Shown here: positions 3,178 through 20,540 of the stretch, piece after piece
Layout of the letters: every line of letters starts with the position of its first letter
Numbering within the stretch: the stretch's first letter is position 1
Virus record (IMG/VR): IMGVR_UViG_3300042563_001426
Span: 1-26,436 of that record
DNA from: a virus
Direction: 5' to 3' (one strand)
DNA: 26,436 nucleotides
The notes under the pieces: generated by a model
Databases searched by the model: none
What the model was told of the DNA's origin: nothing
What the model saw: the letters and a program-made list of their open reading frames with translations, nothing else
Made by a program: the position numbers and the translations under genes

Positions 3178-3190
3178 AATTTTCCTTTTG

Positions 3191-4654: not shown

Positions 4655-4670
4655 ATTGTTTAAATTTCTG

Positions 4671-5804: not shown

Positions 5805-5817
5805 GTTTGGTTGTACC

Positions 5818-5848
5818 AAAAAAAATACTCGGACTGAGCCGAGTATTT
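5818..5848 (-). terminator. Rho-independent terminator
   Basis: A perfect 10-bp stem (AAATACTCGG with CCGAGTATTT, 6-base loop) is followed on the minus strand by eight T residues (5825 to 5818). It lies 17 bases past the stop of 5866..6330 and ends the operon driven from the promoter at 9081. Confidence 0.9.
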
Positions 5849-5865
5849 GTGATCAGTTACATAGT

Positions 5866-6330: not shown

Positions 6331-6339
6331 TTATATCTC

Positions 6340-6630: not shown

Positions 6631-7156
6631 ATCTTTCAATTGCTACAACTAATGCTTGTTCAACTAGTTGATTGAATGTAATGTCTCGCTCATGGGCGAT
6701 CTTCATCAACATAAAAAGTTCGTCATCTGGGAGTTCAATCGGTACACTAACATTGGTACTGTAGTCTTCTCCATTAACAATGGCTGATGCTTTCTCTAGA
6801 AAATCATCAGGGACCTCAAGTGTGGTATAATTGACCCCTTCCCAGGCCTCTTCAGTTGATGAAGTAGATCCAAAATCAGTGAACGAAATATTCCGTTGCT
6901 TTGCTTCAGTACGATAAAACTCAATAAAGTCTGGATTGATCCACCGATAAGCACGATTGCGGGTGTAATCATATGCTGACATTTCGTATACGGTTTGTGT
7001 GACGGTATCAAAAACCACACTAATATTGTGTCCTTCTTGATTGCCATCCCATGAGTCAAGTGTATATGCATTGCTACCATAGCAATTCCATCCGAAAGCT
7101 GATCCTTCGGTGATACGATAATTAACTGTTTCGCAAAAGTCTTTGAGAGTAATCAT
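6608..7156 (-). CDS. Conserved phage protein with C-terminal ribbon-helix-helix-like segment
   Basis: 182 residues; the start overlaps the upstream stop by four bases (ATGA). The N-terminal domain (1-75) includes 'YRITEGSAFGWNCYG' and 'ISVVFDTVTQTVYEM' and is a conserved beta-rich phage module. The C-terminal 45 residues ('VSVPIELPDDELFMLMKIAH', then 'DITFNQLVEQALVVAI') look like a CopG/Arc ribbon-helix-helix: one strand followed by two helices with the typical 'TFNQLVEQAL' second helix. That would allow dimerisation and DNA binding, perhaps regulation. I cannot name a target. The same two-part architecture seems common in phages. Confidence 0.8.
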   Translation of the reverse strand: MITLKDFCETVNYRITEGSAFGWNCYGSNAYTLDSWDGNQEGHNISVVFDTVTQTVYEMSAYDYTRNRAYRWINPDFIEFYRTEAKQRNISFTDFGSTSSTEEAWEGVNYTTLEVPDDFLEKASAIVNGEDYSTNVSVPIELPDDELFMLMKIAHERDITFNQLVEQALVVAIERYERDDSF

Positions 7157-7614
7157 TTTTCTTCCTTTGAAAGTTTACACATTAGCATGAAGTGTTCGTA
7201 AGAACTACGCACTGCTGGATTAGATAATAACACATTTGCCTCATCTTGTAAAGCCTTTACTGCTGCTTCTGATGCCTCATATGCACTAGGCCATAGAAGA
7301 TGATGGTTTTCTTCTCCGAAAGCTTTTGATAAGGCATTCCAAGCGTTAAGTTGAGCAGGAGTTAATGGAGTCTTACTAGGCCTAATGTCAGTGGCTTTAA
7401 CAATAACTGTTGCAATTGCTTCCCTGGCAAATACACCAGCAGCAATCATTGGAGCAAATTCTGGTTCAATATTGAACAGCCGACTTTGACCCTTAGGTAT
7501 ACAAACTACCAAGTGTGCTCCTTCACGAAAACTGTGACTGTAATCGCTATCGTACTCACTGATGGCAATATAATTGCGACCAACTTTTCGGTAAAAAACT
7601 TCTTTAGTCATCAT
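7153..7614 (-). CDS. Conserved phage protein of unknown function
   Basis: 153 residues, starting ATGATG at 7614/7611 and overlapping the upstream stop. 'VFYRKVGRNYIAISEYDSDY' begins a conserved beta hairpin; 'HLVVCIPKGQSRLFNIEPE' and 'PLTPAQLNAWNAL' follow, then a helical C terminus. The family is widespread in tailed phages and its function is not known to me. No membrane span, Walker motif or metal-binding cluster is visible. Being coupled to its neighbours by start/stop overlaps, it is expected to be made in fixed ratio with them. Confidence 0.8.
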   Translation of the reverse strand: MMTKEVFYRKVGRNYIAISEYDSDYSHSFREGAHLVVCIPKGQSRLFNIEPEFAPMIAAGVFAREAIATVIVKATDIRPSKTPLTPAQLNAWNALSKAFGEENHHLLWPSAYEASEAAVKALQDEANVLLSNPAVRSSYEHFMLMCKLSKEEK

Positions 7615-7934
7615 GCGGCCTTGTTTAAAAGTGCCAGCAATTTTCGGTGGCGTACATTCTGTTCTTTACGATCAATTTTTGAAATACTAACAAGACCCAA
7701 CATACTCAGATATTGTCTTGACCAAAGGACTCCAGCAAGAAAGGATTCAACTTGAGAAAGCTCACCCGCAAACAATTCAGCATCCCTAGTATAATTTGGC
7801 AATGCATCATCATTTGGATATAGTGATAATGCATCTGACGATCCGATTCTAGTAGGGCCAAACTTAAATCCTAACGCTTTTGCATTTTCTGCTGCACGAT
7901 TCAATCTTAAAATGGTGTTATATCCTATAGTCAT
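7611..7934 (-). CDS. Small conserved phage protein of unknown function
   Basis: 107 residues from ATG 7934 ('MTIGYNTILRLNRAAENAKA'). A longer frame to 8021 is open but would run into the ATPase gene, so the internal ATG is chosen; AAGAT before it is a weak ribosome site. The N-terminal helix is followed by 'LGFKFGPTRIG' and 'LSLYPNDDALP', then two helices and a basic C terminus ('KIDRKEQNVRHRKLLAL'). It sits 44 bases after the AAA+ ATPase and is the next gene in that transcript. No known domain was recognised. Confidence 0.72.
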   Translation of the reverse strand: MTIGYNTILRLNRAAENAKALGFKFGPTRIGSSDALSLYPNDDALPNYTRDAELFAGELSQVESFLAGVLWSRQYLSMLGLVSISKIDRKEQNVRHRKLLALLNKAA

Positions 7935-7978
7935 AATTGATCTTATTAGATAGGGTCTTATTGACAATGCCCCTGAAA

Positions 7979-9019
7979 TTAAATTTCTTTCATGCAAGTG
8001 GCGCGAGCCATTGCTTCCCAACGATTCGGGAAGCTCTTGCGCAGATCGGCCAACTTAGTTGCCATACGCAGGCTCATTTCACGCAACTTGTACTTGTTGG
8101 CATCCATGAATGCAATAAGCTCTTCTTGCGCACCTTCTTCAAATTCATAGTCAGCAAACAATTCACCATCCCGGGCAATTTGCTTGATACGCAAGATTTT
8201 GTCACGCATGGTATCCAGAGTCAAGTCCAGATAGTGACAACGAGATTGCAGAGCATCCAAGTGATCCTTAAGCTTCTGGCTCTTCATTCCCGAAAACTTC
8301 AGATTCGTAATGAAGATAACTGAGCCCTTGAAATCAAAGCTATCAGGGACACCATCCCGACGAAGAGCATGACTGTCAGACAACCAAGAAATCTTCCTCT
8401 TCTTGCCAGAGTCAAGTGCGCCCTTCAACAGATTCAGGCTAACATCATCAGTCAGAATAGAATCACAATCATCAAATACCAGGACACTATTGGCATCCGA
8501 ATACTTATACAGTGTCATGTACAGTCCGAGAGCAGTAGCACTGCCCTTGACAACTTCAGCACGAAGACGCTTTCCTGCCAATTGGTCAAACAATGTAGCC
8601 TTGCCAACTTCATCTTCAATGATGTAGCTTTTGCCAACTCCTGGGGGACCCGAAACAATCATCGCACGAATCTCACCAGAGATTGCCGCTTTGGTCATAT
8701 CAGTCAGAATAGCAAAACGCTCGGCAATTTCAACCATACGCTCTTCATCATTTTGCGTACATGGAACTTCCATATATTCAGCAGCAGAAGTATTCGGCAC
8801 AGTCAAATCACTTTCGTTAGCAAATTCATAAGCAGCAGGACCTGTCACTTTGATACGGACCTCATCAGTATAACCAGGGAAGTTGCCACCATTCTTGACA
8901 GTGACATGCCCACCCTTTGCCGTTTTACGATATTGTTCAACCAGGGCGAAGACCATGCCAGCAGCGTTGATGCCACGATATGCGCCAGTCTTGATACGAA
9001 TGAAAGCGTTGCTAGACAT
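7979..9019 (-). CDS. AAA+ ATPase of T4-like phage type
   Basis: 346 residues from ATG 9019; the frame is open further but the promoter at 9053..9081 occupies that part, and GGAAC precedes this ATG. Walker A GPPGVGKS (124-131), Walker B VLVFDD (179-184), sensor-1-like 'VIFITN' ending at N239, and a possible arginine finger R260 ('LQSRC') define a AAA+ module. Residues 1-110 form a phage-specific N-terminal region. Such ATPases occur in many T4-like genomes, with no proven role that I can cite; remodelling of a nucleoprotein or host protein is inference. It is the first gene after a strong promoter, so probably expressed early. Confidence 0.88.
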   Translation of the reverse strand: MSSNAFIRIKTGAYRGINAAGMVFALVEQYRKTAKGGHVTVKNGGNFPGYTDEVRIKVTGPAAYEFANESDLTVPNTSAAEYMEVPCTQNDEERMVEIAERFAILTDMTKAAISGEIRAMIVSGPPGVGKSYIIEDEVGKATLFDQLAGKRLRAEVVKGSATALGLYMTLYKYSDANSVLVFDDCDSILTDDVSLNLLKGALDSGKKRKISWLSDSHALRRDGVPDSFDFKGSVIFITNLKFSGMKSQKLKDHLDALQSRCHYLDLTLDTMRDKILRIKQIARDGELFADYEFEEGAQEELIAFMDANKYKLREMSLRMATKLADLRKSFPNRWEAMARATCMKEI

Positions 9020-9052
9020 AATTTGTTCCAATGTGTCAGTGTGTAAGAAGAT

Positions 9053-9081
9053 ATTATAGCACCTTGTTCGGGTGCTGTCAA
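9053..9081 (-). promoter_or_regulatory. Strong sigma70 promoter with palindromic spacer
   Basis: TTGACA (9081-9076), 17-base spacer, TATAAT (9058-9053), with TGC before TATAAT as an extended -10. The spacer itself is a palindrome: GCACC, seven bases, GGTGC, exactly filling it. It drives the AAA+ ATPase operon. The palindrome may be an operator. Confidence 0.9.
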
Positions 9082-9090
9082 GCAAAGACC

Positions 9091-9225
9091 TTACTGCCTG
9101 GAGGGTTTCTTTTCAGCTTCAACAGACTTGCCGCTGTACGCCTTGCCCGAGTAGTGGATCAGGCCAGTGGCAGTCTTGACAATCTTGCCGCCAGTGGAGG
9201 AAATGGTTTGGTTTTGCTTGGTCAT
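9091..9225 (-). CDS. Very small basic phage protein
   Basis: 44 residues from ATG 9225 with AAGGACC about eight bases upstream; TAA at 9091. It is rich in lysine, serine, threonine and glycine, starting 'MTKQNQTISSTGGKIVK', with 'HYSGKAYSGKSVEAEKK' near the C terminus. There is no membrane span. It lies 12 bases after 9238..9423 and shares its promoter at 9456..9484. The good ribosome site and G/C-rich third positions support it as real. Function unknown. Confidence 0.62.
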   Translation of the reverse strand: MTKQNQTISSTGGKIVKTATGLIHYSGKAYSGKSVEAEKKPSRQ

Positions 9226-9237
9226 TTGTCGGTCCTT

Positions 9238-9423
9238 TTAGTAAGAATCAAAGCCCAGATTGTGCATCGCAGCACGAAATGGTTCGGGTTCGCCCTCATC
9301 AGCGAACAGATAAATTGAACCACGGAGGTAATTTGAACATTCAGTTTCAAAAACATTGAAAGCATCAGCAATGTCGCTCAAAGTTTCAACCCGCAGAATG
9401 AAGTCATTGATTGTGTTAAGCAT
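9238..9423 (-). CDS. Small acidic phage protein of unknown function
   Basis: 61 residues from ATG 9423, preceded by AAGGGG at good spacing; a GTG seven codons up lies within the promoter leader and is rejected. Mostly helical and acidic: 'DFILRVETLSDIADAFNVFE', 'FADEGEPEPFRAAM'. It is the first gene after the promoter at 9456..9484. I do not recognise a family. Confidence 0.72.
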   Translation of the reverse strand: MLNTINDFILRVETLSDIADAFNVFETECSNYLRGSIYLFADEGEPEPFRAAMHNLGFDSY

Positions 9424-9455
9424 TTCAAACCCCTTGTTAATCACTGTAAGAACAC

Positions 9456-9484
9456 ATTATAGCAGCAAATAATACCCTTGTCAA
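9456..9484 (-). promoter_or_regulatory. Repeated strong sigma70 promoter
   Basis: TTGACA (9484-9479), 17 bases, TATAAT (9461-9456) with extended -10 TGC. It is flanked by the family's conserved sequence: AACCACACGG before the -35 and GTGTTCTTACAGTGA after the -10. It drives 9238..9423 and 9091..9225. Confidence 0.92.
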
Positions 9485-9533
9485 CCGTGTGGTTATTAGC
9501 TGTTGCTGAAAAACAACAATCAGTTTACACAGT

Positions 9534-9716
9534 TTAAGTGTGTTCCCTGAACAATTCTTTGCGTTTTTCTTCGCCCCACTGGGCATCCAGAATTAATTTG
9601 GCCTTGTTCATCATACCAAAACACAACAGCATCATTTCAGTTGTGTCATTGCACATCATTATTTGGCGCTCAATAGGTAACATTAATTCCTGAAGTCTAA
9701 TTTCAATTGGTAGCAT
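9534..9716 (-). CDS. Small phage protein of unknown function
   Basis: 60 residues from ATG 9716, two bases after the stop of 9719..9880; the frame is open further up but overlaps that gene. The sequence 'MLPIEIRLQELMLPIERQIM' contains an internal near-repeat of 'MLPIE-R' at positions 1 and 12, and ATG 9683 with AGGA just before it is an alternative start. Helical, with methionine-rich centre ('MMCNDTTEMMLLCFGMM') and a basic, acidic-mixed C terminus. Last gene of the group transcribed from 10931. No family recognised. Confidence 0.62.
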   Translation of the reverse strand: MLPIEIRLQELMLPIERQIMMCNDTTEMMLLCFGMMNKAKLILDAQWGEEKRKELFREHT

Positions 9717-9718
9717 TA

Positions 9719-9880
9719 TTATTGCCCAACCGATTGCTGATGCCGCCATTCACGCCGAAGCCACCAACGATATTTTTGAAAATATTCAGTCACATTGTAA
9801 GTTGGATTGGGGATTCCCCAGGCCTCAACTTCAGCAAGATGCTCATACCAAATTTGTTGAACCCAAAACCTAAAATTCAT
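9719..9880 (-). CDS. Small conserved tryptophan-rich phage protein
   Basis: 53 residues from ATG 9880, with AAAGAGAAA about eight bases before it. Sequence features: 'FWVQQIWYEHLAEVEAWG', then 'VTEYFQKYRWWLRREWRHQ', giving eight aromatic Trp/Tyr-rich positions and a strongly basic C-terminal helix. I recall similar short proteins with the 'YFxKYRWWLRRE' ending in other phages; their function is unknown. It begins 11 bases after the SWIM-finger gene and is followed within two bases by 9534..9716. Confidence 0.75.
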   Translation of the reverse strand: MNFRFWVQQIWYEHLAEVEAWGIPNPTYNVTEYFQKYRWWLRREWRHQQSVGQ

Positions 9881-9891
9881 GATGTTTCTCT

Positions 9892-10254
9892 TTACTTAGC
9901 CATTGCTAAATGTTTGCAGGTCCTACGGAATCCAAATCCTGTGCAAGTACATTGGTATTTACCACCACTGACAGTTACAATATATTCACTACCTGGCTTG
10001 CTACCTGGAATCTTGATCTGCCGCACACTTGACTCAACTGGCTTGCTATCAGCACCATCAATGGAAACAATGTATTGCCTACGGATGCTACGGACTGGGA
10101 AGTTAGGATTACCAGTAGTGATACAGAGAACTTCCTCAGGATTTTCCCATTTGCCAGGCTTAACTTCAGTCCCTTCATACACAGTGAATTCAGGAACATC
10201 TATGAACCAAAGATGACGCTTATCCCATCTGTAATCACGGACTTGAACTTGCAT
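9892..10254 (-). CDS. SWIM-type zinc-finger protein
   Basis: 120 residues from ATG 10254. The C terminus holds a CxC...CxH cluster, 'YQCTCTGFGFRRTCKHLAMA' (about residues 99-118), which is the SWIM zinc-finger signature; SWIM domains bind DNA or proteins. Before it, 'RQIKIPGSKPGSEYIVTVSG' is a short beta region leading into the finger, and the first 80 residues hold two more beta segments ('LWFIDVPEFTVYEGTEVKPG'). In other phages similar short SWIM proteins occur without known function. It is preceded by the membrane-protein gene at 10269..10445 and shares the transcript from 10931. Confidence 0.82.
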   Translation of the reverse strand: MQVQVRDYRWDKRHLWFIDVPEFTVYEGTEVKPGKWENPEEVLCITTGNPNFPVRSIRRQYIVSIDGADSKPVESSVRQIKIPGSKPGSEYIVTVSGGKYQCTCTGFGFRRTCKHLAMAK

Positions 10255-10268
10255 GATATGCCTTTGTA

Positions 10269-10445
10269 TTACTTACCATTGACCTTAGCTGAAATAATTC
10301 CACCTAGAATCACAACTGCTGCCCATGTTTCCATTGAATATGGAATTGCCAATGCTGGGAATAGCGTATTCAATGCCCAGATGGTCAGCAGTGGCCCAAT
10401 TGCGATTAAAAATACAAAAAATGCGATCCAAAAAATAAACTTCAT
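10269..10445 (-). CDS. Small membrane protein
   Basis: 58 residues from ATG 10445, with AAGGAAA before it; TAA at 10269. An N-terminal hydrophobic span (residues 3-22, 'FWIAFFVFLIAIGPLL' in part) is followed by 'IWALNTLFPALAIPY', and a second hydrophobic stretch 'TWAAVVILGGII' lies near residues 40-51. This gives two membrane segments with a short basic tail 'KVNGK'. It matches a small membrane protein family I recall from many phages, of unknown role. It sits nine bases after 10455..10871. Confidence 0.8.
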   Translation of the reverse strand: MKFIFWIAFFVFLIAIGPLLTIWALNTLFPALAIPYSMETWAAVVILGGIISAKVNGK

Positions 10446-10454
10446 GATTTTTCC

Positions 10455-10871
10455 TTAAACAGAAAGAGCGTACGGTTGATTCCACTTGCCGATGTTGACA
10501 TCTACATAATATGCAGTGTCAAAATAATCAGTTTGTGCGTCAGAATTATCATACCAATCTGCACCCTTCATTTCAGCAAGAACTTCCTGCAAAAACTTCT
10601 TGGCCTTACCCGAGTAATGACTACCATAGTGATAGGGGTTAACCTGTTCATACCCCGAAGTGTTGGGCGCGAACCCTCGCCCGGCTTGATAAGGATCCTG
10701 GCCGCAAGTTTCATTGCCGTTACCGATGAAATCAATAGCCCCAGACTTGATGGTCAGCACCAAAGTGGAATGATGGCGGATGGAGAGTGATCCCTTGACC
10801 TTGTACTTGGCGCAGATGGCCTTGATCTTGGGGGCGATTTTGGTCTTGGTTGCTTGGTTCACATAAGCCAT
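10455..10871 (-). CDS. Conserved phage protein of unknown function
   Basis: 138 residues from ATG 10871, preceded by AAAAGGAG. Conserved-looking blocks are 'KYKVKGSLSIRHHSTLVLTI', 'IDFIGNGNE', 'NPYHYGSHY' and the C-terminal 'AYYVDVNIGKWNQPY'. The last block ends a family I recall from several phages and some bacterial genomes; the function is unknown. Helical N terminus, then beta-rich. It is the first gene after the strong promoter at 10931, so probably early. Confidence 0.82.
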   Translation of the reverse strand: MAYVNQATKTKIAPKIKAICAKYKVKGSLSIRHHSTLVLTIKSGAIDFIGNGNETCGQDPYQAGRGFAPNTSGYEQVNPYHYGSHYSGKAKKFLQEVLAEMKGADWYDNSDAQTDYFDTAYYVDVNIGKWNQPYALSV

Positions 10872-10902
10872 GTCAAACTCCTTTTAATCACTGTAAGAAC
10901 AC

Positions 10903-10931
10903 ATTATAGCACCGAATAATACACTTGTCAA
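10903..10931 (-). promoter_or_regulatory. Repeated strong sigma70 promoter
   Basis: TTGACA (10931-10926), 17 bases, TATAAT (10908-10903), extended -10 TGC, with the flanking AACCACACGG and GTGTTCTTACAGTGA blocks of the family. It drives five genes, 10871 down to 9534. Confidence 0.93.
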
Positions 10932-10939
10932 CCGTGTGG

Positions 10940-11314
10940 TTATTTCACATTGTGAAAATAATTGTAGGGGAGACCCTTTTTGTAGCAGAAGTATTCAGGA
11001 TCATCTTCAGCATCAGCTTCCTGCAGCAACCAAGCAATGACCCGCGCACGGTTGGTACCTGTGTGCATGAGATTGGTCACACTGTCCTCAAACTTGAGGA
11101 TTGCCGCAGCCTCATCTTCCTTGCGAGCGGTTTCGCTGGCCTCGATAACACGCCCTAACTCATCCAACGCATCGTTGAATTGAGCCTCAGTCCAGGAGTC
11201 AGTGTTGATACCGCGCGGGCGAAAGCCGTAAGCATCTTTGTACATATCTGAATAAATAGTAGCAGCCTGCTCAAGCGCGGTCATGTCGTCCCAGCTTTTG
11301 AATTCGTTGCTCAT
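10940..11314 (-). CDS. Conserved phage protein of unknown function
   Basis: 124 residues from ATG 11314, preceded by AAGGAG; a GTG seven codons earlier lies in the leader. Helical and acidic, with 'WDDMTALEQAATIYSDMYKD', 'YGFRPRGINTDSW' and a C-terminal 'CYKKGLPYNYFH'. I recall phage relatives with the same 'WDDM...EQ...IYxDMYKDAYG.RPRG' beginning and unknown function. It now depends on read-through from 11656, because its own promoter is deleted (see 11325..11356). Confidence 0.8.
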   Translation of the reverse strand: MSNEFKSWDDMTALEQAATIYSDMYKDAYGFRPRGINTDSWTEAQFNDALDELGRVIEASETARKEDEAAAILKFEDSVTNLMHTGTNRARVIAWLLQEADAEDDPEYFCYKKGLPYNYFHNVK

Positions 11315-11324
11315 TTCAAGCTCC

Positions 11325-11356
11325 TTGTTAATCACTGTATAATGTACTTGTCAACC
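11325..11356 (-). promoter_or_regulatory. Deletion remnant of a repeated promoter
   Basis: The -35 TTGACA (11355-11350) is followed directly by ACTTGTAC-like sequence and the leader TACAGTGATTA, without the usual 17-base spacer and TATAAT. About 21 bases of the family's unit are missing. The TGA within TTGACA is used as the stop of 11351..11596. Confidence 0.7.
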
Positions 11357-11596
11357 GTATTGGGTGAAGCCAAAAGTTTTGAGGTCTTCCCAGGTCAGCT
11401 CACGGTCCAGGGCCAACACGGCATTGAACTTGTCCTCAGCTTCGGGACCTGTGTAGCTGAGTTCCCAGCCAACAGGCCCGCCTAGATGACAGCACAGATC
11501 CCCATCTTCAAACCTGAACAAGGAGAGTCTGATATAACGCTCGTCATAGAGAACGTGCATGTCCTGATAGAATCTGATGAAGCATTGTTTGTTCAT
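11351..11596 (-). CDS. Small phage protein of unknown function
   Basis: 81 residues from ATG 11596, preceded by AAGGAGC. A beta-rich first half ('CFIRFYQDMHVLYDE', 'IRLSLFRFEDGDL'), then 'GPVGWELSYTG' and an acidic helical tail ending 'FGFTQYG'. Its stop codon lies within the -35 box of the decayed promoter downstream, so the coding end was probably formed or moved by that deletion. No family recognised with confidence. Confidence 0.72.
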   Translation of the reverse strand: MNKQCFIRFYQDMHVLYDERYIRLSLFRFEDGDLCCHLGGPVGWELSYTGPEAEDKFNAVLALDRELTWEDLKTFGFTQYG

Positions 11597-11627
11597 GTTC
11601 GCTCCTTGTTTCTCACTGTAAGAACAC

Positions 11628-11656
11628 ATTATAGCACAGACCGATATCCGAGTCAA
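11628..11656 (-). promoter_or_regulatory. Repeated sigma70 promoter
   Basis: TTGACT (11656-11651), 17 bases, TATAAT (11633-11628), extended -10 TGC, with AACCACACGG upstream and GTGTTCTTACAGTGA downstream. It drives 11351..11596 and by read-through 10940..11314. Confidence 0.9.
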
Positions 11657-11664
11657 CCGTGTGG

Positions 11665-11883
11665 TTATTTGCTCAGAATGTCCATGAACCGACTGTTGAT
11701 AAGGTCCATTTCGTCCTGTTCAACATAAAAATCGCTGCGAGGGCAGTAATACTGGCCCTCTATGTTGTCATAATACAACACTCGCCCACTAAAATTGAAG
11801 GGACCTTCAAGACCTTTCCTAGGGCCGTACTTTGTACGCATTTCATCCATTTGGAACTTGTCTGCTATGACTTTGTAGCCCAT
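11665..11883 (-). CDS. Small phage protein of unknown function
   Basis: 72 residues from ATG 11883 with AGGGG about nine bases before it. Mixed composition with aromatic 'LYYDNIEGQYYCPRSDFYVE' in the centre and a helical acidic end ('EMDLINSRFMDIL'). No recognised domain. It has its own promoter at 11914..11941. Confidence 0.72.
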   Translation of the reverse strand: MGYKVIADKFQMDEMRTKYGPRKGLEGPFNFSGRVLYYDNIEGQYYCPRSDFYVEQDEMDLINSRFMDILSK

Positions 11884-11913
11884 CTTGAACCCCTGTTGCG
11901 TTAAAGTAAGTAC

Positions 11914-11941
11914 ATTATAACACCTTGTCAGGTGTTGTCAA
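11914..11941 (-). promoter_or_regulatory. Sigma70 promoter with palindromic spacer
   Basis: TTGACA (11941-11936), 16-base spacer, TATAAT (11919-11914). The spacer is exactly a palindrome, ACACC, six bases, GGTGT, matching in design the one at 9053..9081 with the outer base pair exchanged (A-T for G-C). Drives 11665..11883. Confidence 0.88.
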
Positions 11942-11944
11942 GCC

Positions 11945-12157
11945 TTAATACGTGCCTGGGTAAATTTTGTTGTAAGCATTGTAGAATTCTATCACCCAGT
12001 CCTCAACATCAAAGGTGTTGATACCAGTGCTTTCATGCAGTTCATTATACCAGCGATAGGCCGGGCGAACGAAGCCGCCGTTCAACTCCATCATATCGTG
12101 GATGATTCCCAGTTGGTATTCAGTGAATTCAAACATGGTAGAGTCCTTTGCGTTCAT
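11945..12157 (-). CDS. Small phage protein of unknown function
   Basis: 70 residues from ATG 12157, with GGAG six bases before it; ATG 12136 with AAGGA before it is a workable alternative. The sequence carries 'FTEYQLGIIHDMMELNGGFV', then 'YRWYNELHESTGINTFDVED', a mixed helical small protein. No family recognised. It is driven by the promoter at 12186..12214. Confidence 0.7.
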   Translation of the reverse strand: MNAKDSTMFEFTEYQLGIIHDMMELNGGFVRPAYRWYNELHESTGINTFDVEDWVIEFYNAYNKIYPGTY

Positions 12158-12185
12158 ATTGATCTCCTAATCACTGTATAAAGCT

Positions 12186-12214
12186 ATTATAGCACCGAAA
12201 AATAACCAAGTCAA
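12186..12214 (-). promoter_or_regulatory. Repeated sigma70 promoter
   Basis: TTGACT (12214-12209), 17 bases, TATAAT (12191-12186), extended -10 TGC; the family's AACCACACGG block precedes it, but the post -10 sequence (AGCTTTATACAGTGATTA) has diverged in its first half. Confidence 0.88.
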
Positions 12215-12222
12215 CCGTGTGG

Positions 12223-12390
12223 TTATTCAGCCCAAACGCGGTATTGGCCCATGCTGAAGATGTGAGTGATGAACTTTAATCCAGCCTTGGAAATGAATTC
12301 TTTTGCCATTTTTTCAGCTTCGGCAGCGTTGGAGCCTTCCAAAACTGTGATGCGTTGGCTATCAGTACCGATAACGATTGCTTGGATCAT
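12223..12390 (-). CDS. Small phage protein of unknown function
   Basis: 55 residues from ATG 12390, with AAGGGGAAC before it; a longer frame reaches into the promoter and is rejected. A beta-alpha-beta pattern ('MIQAIVIGTDSQRITVLEG', 'AEAEKMAKEFISKAG', 'KFITHIFSMGQYRVW') suggests a compact ferredoxin-like fold, which is inference. Own promoter at 12425..12452. No family recognised. Confidence 0.7.
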   Translation of the reverse strand: MIQAIVIGTDSQRITVLEGSNAAEAEKMAKEFISKAGLKFITHIFSMGQYRVWAE

Positions 12391-12424
12391 GATTTGTTCC
12401 CCTTGTTGCTCACTGTAAGAACAC

Positions 12425-12452
12425 ATTATAGCACATCAACAGGACCTGTCAA
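12425..12452 (-). promoter_or_regulatory. Repeated sigma70 promoter
   Basis: TTGACA (12452-12447), 16 bases, TATAAT (12430-12425), extended -10 TGC, and the GTGTTCTTACAGTGA leader. The block before -35 is replaced by the tail of the terminator at 12456..12494. Confidence 0.88.
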
Positions 12453-12509: not shown

Positions 12510-13643
12510 TTATGGGTAGTATTTCGTTAGCCAATCTAGGTCTGTGCGACTATCATTGACTTCATACCAGCCTTTTCCACCATAAATATTTTTAACAGAT
12601 TGGAAATATTCTTCATACATAAGAGCAACTCGGTCTAAACTAAAGTTATCAACTGCCCATTTACGACAATTATGAGGATCAATTTTATCAATATTTTTTG
12701 CTGCCCAAGTAAATTGTTCAAATGTACGGCAACGATATCCAGTAAGTCCATGTATATTATTTTCAGCGAATGATCCCCAATCAGTAGATATAGTAGGAGT
12801 TCCACTTAGGAGTAATTCAATTTGAACTCCACCAAATGGTTCAACATACATACTAGGAACAAATGCACCTTTTGCTTTGCTCATTAATTGTTTTCTAGTA
12901 GGTACATCAGCATATCCAATAAATTCAACATGAGATGGAGTTTCTGTGTATCCCATGTCAGATAAACTACCTTGACCAGCAATTTTTAATTTAGCACCAA
13001 TAGCAGCAGTAGCCTGAATAGCTACATTAACACCTTTACCATCATATACTCTACCTAGAAATAGAAAATAGTCTTCTTTTTCTTCAGGTTTAAATTCAAA
13101 ATCTTCAATTTCAAAGTAATTTGGAATAACAACATCATACCAATCTTGTTTACATGAACCTACTGCTGGTAAACCATAATAAGCATGATAGATAGCATAA
13201 CTTTCAAAGATTTTAAATCTAGCGAAGTGTCCACCAGCATAACCAATACCAGGTTCAACTATGATCATATCAGGATGAGCATCACAGATTGCTTTATGAC
13301 CATATCCCCAAAATGGCAATAAGAAATCACCAGGTTGTTTGCGTTTACCAATTTCTGCTATGGCATTTCTATAAAATGTTTGATAAGCATGATCATTAAC
13401 ATCAAACTTGAAAAAGTTTTTACGCCAATCATAATTACCGTATGCTTTTTCCAAGTCACTGTTATTGACTACCGTTACATGTTCATCGCATATAAGATCG
13501 GATTCTTCATGACCGTAATGAATGATGGTATGCCCACGGGCTTTCATCATTTTTCCGAATTTTACAACTTTTTGTGTGTAGGCACAAGCATTATACTCTT
13601 TGCTTGATACTGTATGCGGCAGGCCTAAAATATGAAATCTCAT
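12510..13643 (-). CDS. GT-B fold glycosyltransferase (GT4-like)
   Basis: 377 residues. The C-terminal half has the GT4-type donor-site signature: E268-PFGGVQI-E276 (E-x7-E), preceded by '[15 protein letters not shown]' and followed by '[20 protein letters not shown]'. The nucleotide-binding start of the C-domain, '[20 protein letters not shown]' (191-210), is also typical. The N-domain opens with '[10 protein letters not shown]' and has a '[10 protein letters not shown]' turn. It transfers a sugar from a nucleotide donor; the acceptor is not visible. Its start overlaps the previous stop by four bases, and it is the last gene before the terminator at 12456..12494. Confidence 0.9.
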
Positions 13644-14383
13644 TTATATATATGTTCCGGGTAAGTATGGTGATAATGCCAGCCTGGATAACCTTTTGTT
13701 CCACCAGGGGTACTACTAATCTGGCAATAATTTGGATTACCTGACGCTATCCAAGCCTCATGGTCAAATCTATAAGTATTCTTGTCTATTGTATATCCTG
13801 TATACATGCTTTTTGATCCCATAACATAATCATCAGGATGAGGTAAATGAGTAAGTCGTTTAACGTAATCACTATTTGCCCACCAAAATCCACCACTGTA
13901 ATGCGGCCATAAACATTGTTTCTTATCTATTCCCACAAAAGGTTTATCTATGTAGTTTGTTCCTACTGTGTCAAACCCTTCATCTAATTTAGCAATACAA
14001 TCACGCCAGCGATCTATATGCCAATATTCCATGTATTTACGCCAATCATGAATACCGTGATTACCGATATGAGTAATACCTTTCAAATGGAAATATAATA
14101 TATATTCACTCTCGGTAGCATTATCACCCAATGATTTAACTAGTGATAAAGTAGGCCATTCCATTAAATCGCTACGATCACTTGAATGTACTATGCGTAT
14201 ATTATCTCGCCCTTCAACTAATTTAACTAATTCTAAAAACTTAGTCAAATCACCATTTAGGCTCAAAAATATAGTTGCATTATCTACTAAATCAGATTTT
14301 AGCAGTCTGTTTATTTGCTCAATGCTTTGCTTCTGACTACCTGGCAAATCGCAACATTGATACACGACCTTTAAGGGTTTCAT
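13640..14383 (-). CDS. Putative glycosyltransferase-like protein
   Basis: 247 residues starting at ATG 14383 with a four-base overlap on the upstream stop. A Rossmann-like opening '[20 protein letters not shown]' is followed by a GT-A-like acceptor/metal region '[14 protein letters not shown]...HDWR' (about 95-115) and 'GTNYIDKPF', '[14 protein letters not shown]', a pattern I know from sugar-transfer proteins in phage and bacterial surface-polysaccharide clusters. No DxD motif is clear. Its position between a methyltransferase and a glycosyltransferase supports a glycan role. Family assignment is moderate. Confidence 0.72.
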
Positions 14384-15597
14384 TCAATTCTGACCTCTGG
14401 GAAATATCTAATAAATTTGTCTCTTCTAACTGATCGTTTACTAAGTACACGGTTACGGATTTCAGTGTAAAAATTCCAAGCTAACGGGACAAATAAAATT
14501 GGTTGATGTTCTGAAATTCTACCAAGCGTATCAATTCCAACGACAGGAATATGTTTACCTGGACTAAACAATCCTTGTTTCAATGGATTATCATCAATAA
14601 TCATATCTAATTGCAAGTCAGCGAAATTTAATAGAGTATTGCCCTTAGCAGCAGCACCATATCCTACCAATTTGTATCCCTGTCGGCGAAATAATTCACA
14701 TTGAACTTTTAATTGTTGGACTGTGGCATTAACAGTTTCACTCCAATCATAATAAGTCTCTGGAGTAGTCAACCCCTTATGTTTTTCAAGGTCAATTAAA
14801 TTACCAACACGATTAGGTTTACTTTGATTGATACTTAGAACAAATACATAACTTGTACCATGAATGGGAGTCTTTTGGACATCAACTAGATTAAATCCAG
14901 CCCGTGTACAAAGTTCACGCATACTATTAATATTGTAGAAATTTACATGCTCATGATAAATGGTATCAAACTCATTATTCAGGACCATATCCGCTTGACT
15001 TGTTTGAATCATAAACAATCCATCAGGATTAATAATCTTGCGCAATGCAGTAAGGTATCCCAATGGGTCAGGATTATGTGCAAAACTATTTTGAGCAACT
15101 ACCAAATCAACTTTACCAAATTTATCAGCAAATTGTTGCGCAGTTTCTTCATTAAAGAAATCACACATGATATTGTGATTGACACTACTGGTAGGATATA
15201 AATTTTCAGCAGGATCAATTCCGTATGTTATCGCACCTGACTTCTTAAAATAATCTAATTGTGTACCATCATTGCATCCAATGTCTAATACACTTGCTGG
15301 AGGAGTAATGAAATATTCATTCGCAAGTCCCACAAACCATTCCATGTAATCACGTTGGGTCTTGCTTGTTCCACTTACATACAAATAATGTGTGTATATT
15401 AAGGCAGGATCTACTACATCAGTTAATTGCAAATGGCAGCAATTATGACATAGATTGACTGCCAATGGATAATGAGGTTCAGGCTGTTGTTTATCATTTA
15501 AGAAGTTATTGGCTAGGGGTTGATCATTGAGGTCTAACACCAATTTTAAATTGGTACTTCCGCAAGCTAAACAAGAATTGAGTTTCGTAATGGTCAT
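14380..15597 (-). CDS. Sugar C-methyltransferase-like protein
   Basis: 405 residues from ATG 15597; an ATG at 15621 would overlap the upstream gene and lacks a ribosome site. Three-part layout of NDP-sugar C-methyltransferases: an N-terminal zinc-binding part with 'CLACGSTNL' and 'CHNCCHLQL' (four cysteines and a histidine), a SAM-binding centre 'VLDIGCNDGTQLDYF' (about 105-120) with 'DLVVAQNSFAHNPDP', and a C-terminal domain with 'VGYGAAAKGNTLLNF'. The family methylates keto-sugars (C-3 or C-5) such as branched deoxysugars. The upstream 4,6-dehydratase would supply the 4-keto-6-deoxy substrate, so the pair forms a plausible deoxysugar pathway. Confidence 0.85.
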   Translation of the reverse strand: MTITKLNSCLACGSTNLKLVLDLNDQPLANNFLNDKQQPEPHYPLAVNLCHNCCHLQLTDVVDPALIYTHYLYVSGTSKTQRDYMEWFVGLANEYFITPPASVLDIGCNDGTQLDYFKKSGAITYGIDPAENLYPTSSVNHNIMCDFFNEETAQQFADKFGKVDLVVAQNSFAHNPDPLGYLTALRKIINPDGLFMIQTSQADMVLNNEFDTIYHEHVNFYNINSMRELCTRAGFNLVDVQKTPIHGTSYVFVLSINQSKPNRVGNLIDLEKHKGLTTPETYYDWSETVNATVQQLKVQCELFRRQGYKLVGYGAAAKGNTLLNFADLQLDMIIDDNPLKQGLFSPGKHIPVVGIDTLGRISEHQPILFVPLAWNFYTEIRNRVLSKRSVRRDKFIRYFPEVRIE

Positions 15598-15598
15598 A

Positions 15599-16318
15599 TT
15601 AATCTTTAATTGCAACCCCATTGGGTGCTATGTTACCTATCAGTCCCAATGGGCTTTTTCCAACAATTTTAGCAGAATCAATGAACTTATACAAACAATG
15701 TTCAATATCAACATACCCACCTGCTGCTAATCGTTGACTCATGTATTTAAGGCTGTTATCGTAGGCCTGAATAATTTCTTCTGTCAAGATTGGAGGCCAT
15801 GACCAAAGCCTACTCATATACTGGAATTCAGTTTCAGTTATTTTGAAAGGGAATTGACTAGACTTTTTAGATCCTAATACAATCATTGATTGATTTTTGT
15901 AGTCAGTATAAAATGGCAAGTTAAAATCATCAGTGAGTAGATACCGACCACTAATTTTAAATATGCGTTTATATTGAGACAATTGCCCTGTACTGTTTAA
16001 AGTTTTCAATGCTTTACTGAAGCAAAGTACTTCAGTTACATTTTTAACGATGTCCCAGTTGTCAGTACTATTATACAGATTGACAACATCCTCATCTGAT
16101 GTAAAATTAAGCAAATGATCTGATTCGGCAGTTAATGCATCTTGTTGCTCTGTAGTCAATGGAACCCCTGCCATTTCTAAAACAAAGATAGTGGCATTGG
16201 GGATTTGTTGTTTGACACTTTTGATTGTGGCAATGGTTTGAGCTAATCGGACATCATTTTTATAAACACCAAATTTAGTATTTACAGCACTGGTGACCAA
16301 TACTGCATAGTCATTCAT
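15599..16318 (-). CDS. Putative glycosyltransferase or sugar-transfer protein
   Basis: 239 residues from ATG 16318 (four-base overlap with the dehydratase stop). 'RLAQTIATIKSVKQQIPNA' followed by 'TIFVLEMAG' is a GT-A-type opening, and 'KRIFKISGRYLLTDDFNL' near residue 118-135 is a conserved block of phage/bacterial proteins in surface-glycan clusters ('FKISGRY'). 'GGYVDIEHCLYKFID' near 202-216 resembles a C-terminal catalytic-side helix. The exact reaction is unknown. Its stop lies two bases before the methyltransferase start on the minus strand. Confidence 0.7.
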   Translation of the reverse strand: MNDYAVLVTSAVNTKFGVYKNDVRLAQTIATIKSVKQQIPNATIFVLEMAGVPLTTEQQDALTAESDHLLNFTSDEDVVNLYNSTDNWDIVKNVTEVLCFSKALKTLNSTGQLSQYKRIFKISGRYLLTDDFNLPFYTDYKNQSMIVLGSKKSSQFPFKITETEFQYMSRLWSWPPILTEEIIQAYDNSLKYMSQRLAAGGYVDIEHCLYKFIDSAKIVGKSPLGLIGNIAPNGVAIKD

Positions 16319-17349
16319 TTACGCAACCACCTATCATTCACCAAAGTCCATTGCACCATTTCAGTAATTCGTTCAGTTAGTTTAATGGTAGGTTCCCATC
16401 CTAAACTACGCAATAGTCCGCCATCTAGTGCATATCGCAAGTCATGTCCAGGCCTACTACTATGGAAGTCTGTCATTTCGTAGTTCAATTCACGACCTAC
16501 TGCACTAGCAATCAGTTTTGCCAGGGTAAGGTTATCAATTTCTTCAGTACCTACTAGATTAAATTTCGGGCAATGAGCATGACCATAATCGCCCAAGTGT
16601 TTATAATTTTGTAATCCTAGGATGAACATCAATCCTTCCGCAACATCTCGGGCATGGATATACATTCTAGTACCGGCATGAGTACAAGTAGGATCAGCAT
16701 GAATAATGACTTTTTCACCATCCCGTGCTTTTTGAATAGTACTTGGAATAAACTTTTCACAATGTTGTCTTTCCCCAAATACATTCATTGTATGGGTGAC
16801 TACAATAGGCATTTTGTATGTATTCTCATATGCCACACAGAATTCTTCTGCCGCTGCCTTACTAGCACTATATGGATTAGTACTATTATACCGATCGTAT
16901 TCTTTATATGAAACGCCTTCAGGGGCAACTCCAAAGATTTCGTCAGTACTAAAATATACCAATCGTTCTAGATTAGGCAAGTTTTTCCTAGCATAATCCA
17001 AAATATTTACTGTACCGATAACATTATCCTGAACAAATTCCATTGGATATGTTATACTGCGATCAACATGGCTTCCTGCAGCCAAATGCAAGATGATATC
17101 AATGGGACCTATATCCGCAATGATTTGACTATTAAGTTCTGCCTTCAGATCATGGAAAATGATTCGCATACGCTTAGATATCATGACTGGATCATGAATC
17201 TTCAGCATATCGTGTAATCTATTTAGGTTACCCGAAATGTCCAATCTATCCAAGCTAACGATATGCCAATCAGTGTTTGTCAATATGCGATCAATTACAT
17301 GATGCGCGATGAAACCGGCTCCGCCAGTAATTAATACTCTTTTTACCAT
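16315..17349 (-). CDS. NAD-dependent NDP-sugar 4,6-dehydratase (RmlB-like)
   Basis: 344 residues, usual size for RmlB-type short-chain dehydrogenase/reductases. 'VLITGGAGFIAHHVIDRI' (residues 5-22) is the NAD-binding GxxGxxx motif, 'LHLAAGSHVDRSI' is the typical RmlB segment, 'FSTDEIFG' carries the catalytic Thr-Asp-Glu, and 'YSASKAAAE' gives the YxxxK catalytic pair. 'NVFGERQ' and 'GTRMYIHARDVAEG' match the substrate domain. It converts an NDP-glucose to an NDP-4-keto-6-deoxyglucose. It is the first gene of the sugar operon, 11 bases after 17361..17513, with AGGA before the ATG. Which nucleotide it uses cannot be read from the sequence. Confidence 0.92.
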   Translation of the reverse strand: MVKRVLITGGAGFIAHHVIDRILTNTDWHIVSLDRLDISGNLNRLHDMLKIHDPVMISKRMRIIFHDLKAELNSQIIADIGPIDIILHLAAGSHVDRSITYPMEFVQDNVIGTVNILDYARKNLPNLERLVYFSTDEIFGVAPEGVSYKEYDRYNSTNPYSASKAAAEEFCVAYENTYKMPIVVTHTMNVFGERQHCEKFIPSTIQKARDGEKVIIHADPTCTHAGTRMYIHARDVAEGLMFILGLQNYKHLGDYGHAHCPKFNLVGTEEIDNLTLAKLIASAVGRELNYEMTDFHSSRPGHDLRYALDGGLLRSLGWEPTIKLTERITEMVQWTLVNDRWLRK

Positions 17350-17360
17350 TTATATTCCTA

Positions 17361-17513
17361 TTATATGATTTCTGATTTTGATTCTAGATATTCTTTAATA
17401 ACTCGCAATGCTTTACGACTAGTATCGTAAACATATTCTTTAGTGTCATCCTCAGTTGTCACCACTAGAATAAATCCATTAGCGACACGACGGACTTCAA
17501 TTGTTTCAAACAT
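17361..17513 (-). CDS. Very small conserved phage protein
   Basis: 50 residues from ATG 17513, with AAAGGAAAT before it; TAA at 17361. A beta hairpin with 'EVRRVANGFILVVTT', then 'EDDTKEYVYDTSRKALRVIK', and a charged helix ending in 'ESKSEII'. The 'EFVYDTxRKAL' pattern is one I recall from many tiny phage proteins of unknown function. It probably shares the transcript from 17879. Confidence 0.78.
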   Translation of the reverse strand: MFETIEVRRVANGFILVVTTEDDTKEYVYDTSRKALRVIKEYLESKSEII

Positions 17514-17523
17514 TATATTTCCT

Positions 17524-17637
17524 TTAAGAGAAAGAATTCAATACTAATATTGCTACAGCAATAATACTAATTAACACAGGGACCAAGATCAATACCTTAC
17601 CAGGCCTTGATCTTGTATTAATAATACTAGATTTCAT
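17524..17637 (-). CDS. Very small single-span membrane protein
   Basis: 37 residues from ATG 17637; the A of its ATG is the last base of the upstream TAA (TAATG), so it is translationally coupled. The N terminus is basic ('SSIINTRSRPGK') and is followed by one hydrophobic span, 'VLILVPVLISIIAVAILVLN'. The basic N terminus would remain in the cytoplasm. Function unknown. The short length would make it easy to overlook; the overlap and span support it. Confidence 0.68.
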   Translation of the reverse strand: MKSSIINTRSRPGKVLILVPVLISIIAVAILVLNSFS

Positions 17638-17819
17638 TACGCTAGATAAAGAGCGCAAACAATAACCAGGAAAAGAAAAGAGATAACAATAGCTGCTGCT
17701 GGGAATAGCATTGAGCTAAGCCGATTGATTGAAGAATCAGCAATTGAGCTATTGGAATAACCTACAGTAAATTGGCAATCTGCCAAAGTACGTGGAGTAA
17801 CAAAATGAGAATTTTTCAT
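17637..17819 (-). CDS. Small single-span membrane protein, conserved in phages
   Basis: 60 residues from ATG 17819. The N-terminal part 'FVTPRTLADCQFTVGYSNSS' is a sequence block I recall from short phage proteins ('TPRTxADCxF'), of unknown function. A C-terminal hydrophobic span 'AAAIVISFLFLVIVCALYLA' ends at the last residue, giving a tail-anchored design. First gene after the promoter at 17851..17879. The usual phage relatives I recall lack the membrane tail, so the tail here may be an addition. Confidence 0.78.
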   Translation of the reverse strand: MKNSHFVTPRTLADCQFTVGYSNSSIADSSINRLSSMLFPAAAIVISFLFLVIVCALYLA

Positions 17820-17850: not shown

Positions 17851-17879
17851 ATATTAACACAAGATGAGCTATGTGTCAA
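17851..17879 (-). promoter_or_regulatory. Sigma70 promoter of the small membrane-protein/sugar-operon transcript
   Basis: TTGACA (17879-17874), 17 bases, TAATAT (17856-17851). The leader CTAACTTAGGTTGAAT before ATG 17819 resembles that of the next gene (CTAACATAGGTTAAAAT), so the two promoters form a pair unlike the 9-12 kb family. No terminator or further promoter was seen before 12494, so the sugar genes may be read from here. Confidence 0.82.
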
Positions 17880-17895: not shown

Positions 17896-18831
17896 TTAGT
17901 ACCTAGATGCACAATAACCGCCATTTGCATTGACCCAGTTCTGTTGAATCAAGAATTTACGATTGCCTAGTGTCATGTTGTACTTTGCGCCTGACGGTAA
18001 CTTAGTAACGGCACCGTACGTCCATGAACACTTATCTCCATTTTCAATACCACGGCTATCATACCAACCGTTAAATTCAGGATCAGTGACAGTTTCTGCC
18101 AATTCATGCGCTATCATATTAGCCATACTATCAGCGCCTGCATTCCCATTGGGGCTAATATTCTGAGGAGAACACGCATTTGGACAACGGTCAGTATTTC
18201 CAATGAATGAATATTTGATAGTAGTGCCGCCAATCTTGGCCTTAGAGTGCCAAGCACAATACTTGGTACAGAAACCTGAACTAGCATTAACATCGGCTGA
18301 AGTCAACACAAAGTAGACTGCATTACTATCCTTGGGTAGATAGCCAGTGGTGATTGCAGATTCTACCACATTTTCTATCTGTGCATCGCTCAACACCTTA
18401 CCTTCGGAATAATTGTCAGCAGTTTGTTGCAGTAGATGCACGGAATTCGTGACCTTTTTACCATTAGCGTCGGCGTAAGTAGTGTTGATATTATACCAAG
18501 GCGACCCAGACAGCCCATTGGCAAAGTCAGTAAGAATTGACGGTGCTGTATTACCAGCCCAGTTACCGTACCAGATGTAATACAGATTGGTTCCATTAGG
18601 ACTATTGAGTAGAGGTCCTCCATGATAGTTAATATTGTTATTAGTACTGCCCCGTACTTTAAGTACAATGGAGGCCTTGATTGTAGTGTTAGTAGCTGTT
18701 GTTTCTATTCGTAATTCACCTACTCCTCGTCCAGTGGGATAGTATGATTTACCGTGATCCGCTCGTAATTCACCTGCGTTTGCACACAATGAGCCGAATG
18801 TTAATCCTAATGCTAGTACCCAATTTTTCAT
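17896..18831 (-). CDS. Secreted EXORDIUM/phosphate-induced protein 1-like protein
   Basis: 311 residues. A signal peptide is clear: 'MKNWVLALGLTFGSLCANA', cleavage after the A-N-A near residue 19. The mature part follows the EXORDIUM (PHI-1, PF04674) pattern in order: 'YHGGPLL' (near 69), 'YIWYGNW', 'SPWYNI..TYAD..GKKVT', 'NYSEGKVLSD', 'VYFVLTSADV', 'GFCTKYCAWH', 'GNTDRCPNAC', 'IAHELAETVTDPEFNGWYD', 'CSW'. Several paired cysteines suit export. The HELAE segment could bind metal, but no complete HExxH is present. In plants the family acts in the cell wall; bacterial members have unknown roles. It stands alone between its own promoter and the next promoter, which suggests a separate cargo gene. 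Function in a phage is not known to me. Confidence 0.85.
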   Translation of the reverse strand: MKNWVLALGLTFGSLCANAGELRADHGKSYYPTGRGVGELRIETTATNTTIKASIVLKVRGSTNNNINYHGGPLLNSPNGTNLYYIWYGNWAGNTAPSILTDFANGLSGSPWYNINTTYADANGKKVTNSVHLLQQTADNYSEGKVLSDAQIENVVESAITTGYLPKDSNAVYFVLTSADVNASSGFCTKYCAWHSKAKIGGTTIKYSFIGNTDRCPNACSPQNISPNGNAGADSMANMIAHELAETVTDPEFNGWYDSRGIENGDKCSWTYGAVTKLPSGAKYNMTLGNRKFLIQQNWVNANGGYCASRY

Positions 18832-18861
18832 GCTATTTTAACCTATGTTAGTGGTAAGTGT

Positions 18862-18890
18862 ATACTAACAAAAATACGCGCCTAAGTCAA
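18862..18890 (-). promoter_or_regulatory. Sigma70 promoter of the EXORDIUM-like gene
   Basis: TTGACT (18890-18885), 17 bases, TAGTAT (18867-18862). Leader CTAACATAGGTT precedes ATG 18831. Confidence 0.75.
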
Positions 18891-18903
18891 TGCAAATCGG
18901 CAT

Positions 18904-18955
18904 AAAAATAAGCCGTTCGGTGCAGAATTTCAATGAATTCGCACCGTTACGGCTT
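18904..18955 (-). terminator. Rho-independent terminator
   Basis: A long hairpin: AAGCCGT pairs with ACGGCTT, CGGTGC with GCACCG, and inner GAATT with AATTC, loop of six. It is followed on the minus strand by ATTTTT (18909-18904). It ends the transcript of 18975..20540 and insulates the EXORDIUM-like gene. Confidence 0.85.
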
Positions 18956-18974
18956 AGTTATTAAAGAGAGTTAG

Positions 18975-20540
18975 TTATCTGCGTGATCTACCTGCAATTG
19001 ATTCAGGTGGTGGTTTTTTAGGTTCTTTAGTTGGAGTGATTTCAGTTCGTGCTTTTCTAGGAGCAGCCGCTTCAGCATCAGATGGAGAAATAACACTAGG
19101 GCCATTGGGTTCTTGATCAGGTTCTACGTAGGTGGCATTATTGAAGAGGATGCTAAAAGTAAAGTTACCTTTAATATCAGTGCTATAATAATTTTTACCT
19201 GCAGTGAATTTTACTCCAGTAACTGCGGTACCAGGCCAAATAGAATCAAATGATTTCACTGTCCATTTATCACCTGATTGAGATGCTTTTGTATACACCT
19301 GTATTAATGCACCGTTGTTTAGTATTTCTGATGCCGCGTCACTAAATTTTGTGTTATTGTTGATGTAATCAGCGACTTCATGCGCTACTGCAGCAATACA
19401 ATGAAAATACAAATTAAGATTGTTAGGTTTTTTAGTAACTTTATTAGTAATCAACTTTTTAATAGTTGGGTTAAGATTCATTCCTAATGCGATTGGCAAA
19501 GTAGTTTGTGCCATTTTTTTAAATCCAACTATAGTATTAGCATCTTCTTCTTTAATAATGCCATATTCTATTCCCAATAATAATGGAGCGTTGGCTTGTC
19601 CAGCTGCCGAAACTTTTTTAATCAGGTCAATGATTTTTATGTGTTTTTTTGTTAGTGCTGAGTCACCCAACTCATTTATAGCATTAAGTAAATTAATAGT
19701 GCTTGCATCTGCTCCTTTAGAACCTTTACTACTTACTTTGATTTTTTTACCTTCAGGACTAATAAGAATACTATCACTTAACCCTTCGGTTTTATCTTTA
19801 CCGAAATTAATAGTGGTATTACTGAAGTCATCCCTTCCTAAAAATTTCATTGCTGCTTTACCAGCATTACCTTTGAAATTTCCAGTTTGCAATGCAATAG
19901 GATGTAACAATTCACAAAAATAATCTCTGAATGCAGTGAAATGCATACCTTCAGGTGCATCAAACGAAATTGGTAATTTTACTCCATCTGCAATTGAACG
20001 AGCAAGTCCTGTCAATGGACTATCATCACCAAATTTTGCTGCAATTTGTACAACTATACTATCAGGATTAAGATTGCTTTGTTGCGTAGTCAAAATATCC
20101 TGAGGTGCCATTTTAGACTTAGCTTTTTTAGCACTCTTGCTATTGTAATTAAATCCAGGTATTCCTTTTTGATTGTCCCATTTATTCTGACTAGGATCAG
20201 GATGTATCGCCTCAAATGGCTTTACAAATGCTATATTAGTTGGGTCACCCGGTCTCTCAAATATAGCTATACCAAATGCCAATTGCTTTTTGTTAAACTT
20301 GCCTATTAAATCAACATAAGCATTAGGAATTAAATGGACTATTCTTGAAAGTTCAATGTTCCGTTCTTCTTCAGTTTCATAAGCAGCAGCATCCTCTGGA
20401 TAAAAATCTACACTTTTTACATAGACTTTATCTTCAGGATCAGTAGTACTTACAAATTCTTCACCAGACTGTCTTGCACCTAAGCCACGACTTTCGGTAA
20501 TAAGAGAATTATATGTTATTAAATCAATTAAGTTACGCAT
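18975..20540 (-). CDS. Large phage protein of unknown function
   Basis: 521 residues from ATG 20540. No clear ribosome site is seen before it. N-terminal 'NLIDLITYNSLITESRGLGA' and the domain 100-250 have no obvious motif. A nuclease-like pattern near residues 255-275 deserves mention: a conserved-looking D ('SDSILISPEGKKIKVSSK') 13 residues before a V-S-S-K, which could be a variant PD-(D/E)xK core; this is inference only. The last 60 residues are low-complexity, proline- and charge-rich ('TPTKEPKKPPPESIAGRSRR'). The gene lies downstream of the recombination genes and ends at a terminator. I do not recognise it. Confidence 0.75.
   Translation of the reverse strand: MRNLIDLITYNSLITESRGLGARQSGEEFVSTTDPEDKVYVKSVDFYPEDAAAYETEEERNIELSRIVHLIPNAYVDLIGKFNKKQLAFGIAIFERPGDPTNIAFVKPFEAIHPDPSQNKWDNQKGIPGFNYNSKSAKKAKSKMAPQDILTTQQSNLNPDSIVVQIAAKFGDDSPLTGLARSIADGVKLPISFDAPEGMHFTAFRDYFCELLHPIALQTGNFKGNAGKAAMKFLGRDDFSNTTINFGKDKTEGLSDSILISPEGKKIKVSSKGSKGADASTINLLNAINELGDSALTKKHIKIIDLIKKVSAAGQANAPLLLGIEYGIIKEEDANTIVGFKKMAQTTLPIALGMNLNPTIKKLITNKVTKKPNNLNLYFHCIAAVAHEVADYINNNTKFSDAASEILNNGALIQVYTKASQSGDKWTVKSFDSIWPGTAVTGVKFTAGKNYYSTDIKGNFTFSILFNNATYVEPDQEPNGPSVISPSDAEAAAPRKARTEITPTKEPKKPPPESIAGRSRR

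Follow-up and report, generated by a model that had tools for sequence, protein, structure and literature searches.

A PHI-1/EXORDIUM-family gene as cargo of a T4-like jumbo phage and the metzincin-like predicted fold of its product

The window, i.e. the whole stretch of DNA analysed here, was a 26.4-kb virus record, itself a fragment. Genes for a terminase large subunit, a single-strand binding protein and a UvsX recombinase, all T4-like, were found around the gene described below, along with a helicase that, by its sequence, is of UvsW type. The closest named terminases (TerL, 52% identical over 99%) were those of the Pseudomonas jumbo phages PA5oct, Paride and MIJ3. Judged by such genes, the phage appears to be a T4-like jumbo phage of virulent type; no lysogeny gene was seen in the 26-kb fragment. 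We also observed a block of sugar genes at 12510-17349, with a GDP-mannose-dehydratase-like epimerase, a C-methyltransferase, a group 1 glycosyltransferase and two ORFs that had no Pfam family match. The block possibly serves the modification of a surface glycan or of DNA or the virion.

Upstream of this block, on the minus strand, lies an ATG-initiated ORF of 311 codons (Table 1). An earlier note, made from the letters of the DNA, had placed its product in the EXORDIUM/PHI-1 family. The profile search with PF04674 (Phi_1) agreed with that placement: the match scored 125.5 bits (E=3.4e-36; Pfam cut-off 25) and covered positions 1-267 of the 276 of the profile. Every motif block listed in the note was found, and most of them coincide with columns that are conserved in an alignment of 50 sequences. 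The ORF thus encodes a full-length PF04674 protein, and it is evidently not a chance ORF, because its dN/dS was about 0.10 in comparison with two relatives. Matches to RQC and CBM26 were weak and under the cut-off, and were set aside.

The N-terminus, MKNWVLALGLTFGSLCANA followed by GE, has an AxA cleavage site and reads as a typical Sec signal peptide according to sequence reading and a hydropathy scan, as had been proposed. The confidence of the AlphaFold model was low over these residues, which is expected for such a segment. Cysteines are at positions 16, 188, 192, 216, 220, 268 and 307; six of them are in the mature part. The note had mentioned several cysteines.

Table 1. Features at and near the PF04674 gene (window coordinates).
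Feature	Coordinates	Strand	Basis or remark
PHI-1/EXORDIUM-family (PF04674) gene, 311 aa	17896..18831	-	Pfam E=3.4e-36; dN/dS about 0.10 vs L002/L003
Predicted Sec signal peptide, residues 1-19, cleavage after ANA	18775..18831	-	sequence reading and hydropathy scan
H195, other invariant histidine	18247..18249	-	alignments
HELAE motif (H242-E246), part of helix 231-249, a candidate metal-site helix	18094..18108	-	conservation; weak profile register with metzincin HExxH
D250, invariant acidic residue of HExxE...D	18082..18084	-	alignments
ENxDKC block (E263, D266, C268 invariant)	18028..18045	-	alignments
Sigma70-like extended -10 promoter, TTGACT-N17-TAGTAT	18862..18890	-	TG precedes -10
5' leader element CTAACATAGGTTAAA of the PF04674 gene	18837..18851	-	common to next gene's leader
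Intrinsic terminator of upstream 521-aa gene, hairpin and U tract	18900..18956	-	-25 kcal/mol, z -5.8
60-aa tail-anchored membrane miniprotein	17637..17819	-	present in same contigs only as PF04674 gene
Promoter of 60-aa gene, TTGACA-N17-TAATAT (TG-extended)	17851..17879	-	
37-aa membrane miniprotein ORF	17524..17637	-	translation; partly conserved in L002
50-aa soluble ORF before epimerase gene	17361..17513	-	translation; conserved in L002
Allele-exchange block	17950..18905 (about)	.	L002 identity 75-93% inside, mostly 95-100% outside

The gene appears to have a consensus promoter of its own and to be bounded by the strong terminator hairpin of the neighbouring gene, two features that the earlier note had also claimed. 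The hairpin was identical across four contigs. In the related contigs L002 and L003, the -10 element and its TG were conserved while the -35 element was weaker. The promoters of the PF04674 gene and of the 60-aa gene were the sole two exact matches in the window to their common pattern, and the leader CTAACWTAGGTTRAA likewise had exact matches in the window only at these two genes. These elements probably serve early transcription by the sigma70 polymerase of the host. The 60-aa miniprotein could be assigned to no family, and an Rfam search of the window gave no RNA element. Elsewhere in the window, at 9053-12452 on the minus strand, we observed seven near-consensus promoters of the form TTGAC-N14/15-TGNTATAAT, most of which precede small ORFs with a higher GC. 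L002's contig has the same set, and the region is probably one of early genes.

With respect to distribution, a tblastn search against 50,697 phage records found no relative of the protein. PA5oct, Paride and MIJ3 have no PHI-1 gene, unlike the window phage. In IMG/VR, the gene was found at the same locus in three contigs only, with 100% (L001), 88% (L002) and 86% (L003) identity. It was absent from all 22 other relatives whose contigs span the interval from uvsX to the AAA gene; therefore, it is not a core gene of the group. Among 23 loci with uvsX and the AAA gene on one piece, the PF04674 gene was present only in the one holding L002's contig, while the uvsX genes of the 22 gene-less loci were 73-86% identical. 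In L003, uvsX is split by an intein (2838-5319): the N-part with the N-intein is at 2838-3782, the C-intein with the C-part is at 4792-5319, and another ORF, of 334 aa and weakly matching Vsr endonuclease, is separate from both (3816-4820). The layout is like that of the 'fractured gene' split inteins already known; uvsX is uninterrupted in the window and in L002.

By its promoter, the preceding terminator, its absence from relatives and its bacterial origin, the gene shares the features of 'moron'-type phage cargo genes and is cargo. The moron-type layout suggested earlier therefore holds with respect to promoter, terminator and cargo status. The word 'moron' itself is loose here, because the gene is carried by a virulent-type jumbo T4-like genome rather than by a temperate phage. 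We know of no moron of the EXORDIUM/PHI-1 family.

More distant PF04674-type members were found among phage-type genes in two unrelated viral contigs. The first, L085, is 40% identical to the phage protein and passes the Pfam cut-off. The second, L086/L087, whose contig measures up to 185 kb, is 27% identical and was matched (E 2e-23) only with the homologue profile built here. In L086, the PHI-1-like gene carries a fused putative Ig domain and adjoins a Ro60-like TROVE/vWA gene (5550-7325 and 7824-9062).

In a quick tree, in which the placement of the distant members L085 and L086 was unsure, the phage sequences were embedded, as a single clade (support 100), in a bacterial tree, with two proteobacterial MAG sequences as neighbours (support 91). 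The donor was thus bacterial, probably from Pseudomonadota. The nearest bacterial copies were only about 60% identical to the phage protein. The family appears rare in hosts, since a scan of 398 genomes from the phylum to which G001 belongs found it in two, one of these being G001 itself, which holds the Mizugakiibacter locus L012. The gene also seems to have resided in phage for a long time, because its GC3 was 0.37 compared to a locus GC of at least 0.57 in the best bacterial homologues.

The gene had a dN/dS of 0.10 in comparison with both L002 and L003, with about 89-100 synonymous changes. Its dS from L002 was 0.56, compared to 0.02 for the 521-aa gene and 0.08 for the epimerase gene, and the divergent block started at the promoter and ended close to the stop codon. 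The low dN/dS, the locally raised dS and the divergent block therefore indicate a functional gene under purifying selection that has undergone allelic replacement through recombination among phages of the population. We also observed that the 521-aa neighbour (18975-20540) was 99% identical to its L002 counterpart and 80% identical to that of L003 (dS 0.51); because this gene too is locally exchanged, the interval seems to recombine often.

The phage protein has in common with the Phi_1/EXORDIUM proteins of plants and bacteria the whole conserved domain, a predicted signal peptide, the apparently secreted type and all conserved blocks. The literature treats EXO as an extracellular protein whose biochemical function is unknown, and for the plant member it gives no enzymatic activity (PMC2661892, PMC13103426). 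A growth-promoting role in the cell wall is known only for plant members, and only one bacterial homologue was known in 2009 (PMC2661892). Our search of the open-access literature found no paper linking EXORDIUM with metalloproteases or metzincins, with AlphaFold or with bacteriophages. In 20 bacterial loci, the Phi_1 gene adjoins a gene for a small secreted DUF4440 (NTF2-like) protein, which in 19 of them (L006, L010, L015, L017, L021, L026 and 13 more) comes immediately after it in the same orientation. Such an arrangement suggests that the two genes make a functional pair in bacteria. In the phage this partner gene is missing, and the membrane miniproteins are present instead.

Conservation was assessed in an alignment of 50 homologues and in a second one to which distant viral members were added. 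Invariant in the 50 homologues were G72, W87, Y119, Y173, V181, H195, H242, E243, D250, E263, D266, C268, G273, N285 and Q296, with E246 conserved at 90% or more. When two distant viral members were included, H195, H242, E243, D250, E263, D266 and C268 were still invariant. This set of histidines and acidic residues looks like a metal or catalytic site. We take it, as a lead, that plant EXO proteins also keep HExAE.

The AlphaFold2 model of the phage protein, built with a 50-sequence alignment, had a pLDDT of 85.9 and a pTM of 0.85, with most of the core above 90. In a Foldseek search of the PDB, no match had an E-value under 0.001, and the best reached 0.0027. Still, the first 36 matches by E-value were all metzincins, at probabilities of up to 0.97, many of them repeat entries of ADAM17, so that fewer independent proteins are represented. 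ADAM10, ADAMTS-4, ADAM17 and archaemetzincin (probability 0.96, target TM 0.49) were among them. For the viral member L086 the model was of low confidence (pLDDT 66), and the top match was ADAM33 (probability 0.99, with E above 0.001 and TM below 0.5); its first eight matches also included ADAM8, acutolysin-C, ADAM22 and one Amuc_1438 glycopeptidase. For the two models together, the TM-scores ranged from 0.24 to 0.49. The two models, whose best fold matches were thus metzincins (adamalysins/ADAMs, archaemetzincin), are not wholly independent since their alignments have homologues in common. A search of a viral structure library had no match better than E 0.027, and a single-sequence search for a solved relative found nothing useful (best E 0.33). 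The best profile match to solved proteins was microbial transglutaminase (39 positions, E 0.07), which was not useful.

A comparison of profiles with 28 bacterial reprolysin-type proteins put the HE-bearing helix of Phi_1 in register with that of metzincins, HExxE aligned over HExxH. The single-pair E was 0.008 compared to at least 0.11 in 30 column-shuffled controls, for a match of 21 columns only with a probability of 5%. PF13582 was used in this work in place of PF05572, for which the search gave mostly weak metzincin matches. Metzincins have HExxHxxGxxH/D, whereas Phi_1 proteins have HExxE...D and another invariant histidine, and there was no sequence-family match between them. In the phage protein, HELAETVTD has Glu in the place of the second His, and the Gly and the third ligand are not at their places. 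Within the 50 homologues, no Met is invariant in the stretch where the Met-turn would be expected. No Pfam peptidase model matched any of the 50 members. Because the fold matches are weak, the resemblance is a lead rather than a proof; the protein may work like a metzincin and is not filed as one, because the canonical motif is absent.

The earlier note had offered no mechanism, and the fold comparison suggests one, a metzincin-like metalloprotein. Our best explanation, which we hold tentatively, is that of an exported, early protein of this kind acting on envelope or matrix proteins of the infected cell. A jumbo T4-like phage would have acquired a bacterial EXORDIUM/PHI-1-family gene and retained it as early-expressed cargo, transcribed by host sigma70 RNA polymerase from its own promoter. 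The product would be exported by the host Sec pathway, probably be disulphide-bonded, and work in the periplasmic space, on the cell surface or beyond it. At such a site, as a peptidase or a peptidase-derived domain that may bind metal, it would most likely target envelope or matrix proteins. As for substrate and benefit, our guess is a changed surface of the infected cell, e.g. one that blocks a competing phage or has a loosened matrix.

A somewhat improbable alternative is a non-enzymatic secreted binder of envelope polysaccharide or protein, a ligand or structural factor with an old peptidase-like or an unrelated fold. The missing canonical metzincin ligands and the plant EXO literature, in which no enzymatic activity is described (PMC2661892, PMC13103426), would suit such a binder; however, the invariant residues, with two His, four acidic residues and few others, resemble those of a metal-binding or catalytic site. 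We consider it unlikely that the protein excludes superinfection or masks a receptor without proteolysis, blocking adsorption or DNA entry alone or with the 60-aa membrane protein. The PF04674 and 60-aa genes were only found together, each with a sigma70-like promoter, allele swapping fits competition between phages, and glycosyltransferases and a sugar epimerase are among the adjoining genes. Still, nothing ties the protein to a receptor, and the bacterial homologues, which in some cases have a secreted DUF4440 protein as partner, have an unrelated role. That the gene shares its strand block with terL and a virion gene could suggest a structural, tail-associated or lysis component that aids entry or release. 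This is very unlikely given the signal peptide, a sigma70-like promoter outside the structural operon and the absence of the gene from close virion-forming relatives. A neutral passenger lately acquired from a bacterium, which the cargo position and narrow distribution would allow, is highly improbable, being disfavoured by purifying selection over the synonymous changes counted above and by a GC3 that speaks for long residence in phage.

To extend the metzincin-like reading further, the whole EXORDIUM/PHI-1 family might be a divergent metzincin branch with an HExxE...D metal site, and phages of at least three lineages might, independently of one another, have acquired secreted enzymes of this kind for remodelling the infected cell's surface; we regard this combined proposal as doubtful. 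In the phage, a known family is found in a new setting. This kind of predicted exported protein is an addition to phage cargo, with no case in the 50,697 annotated records and occurrence in three unrelated viral lineages of IMG/VR. EXORDIUM proteins drive plant cell expansion, and the phage and bacterial version is compact, with a protein of about 31 kDa. The few invariant His and acidic residues, together with the predicted metzincin-like fold, make the function of EXORDIUM testable.
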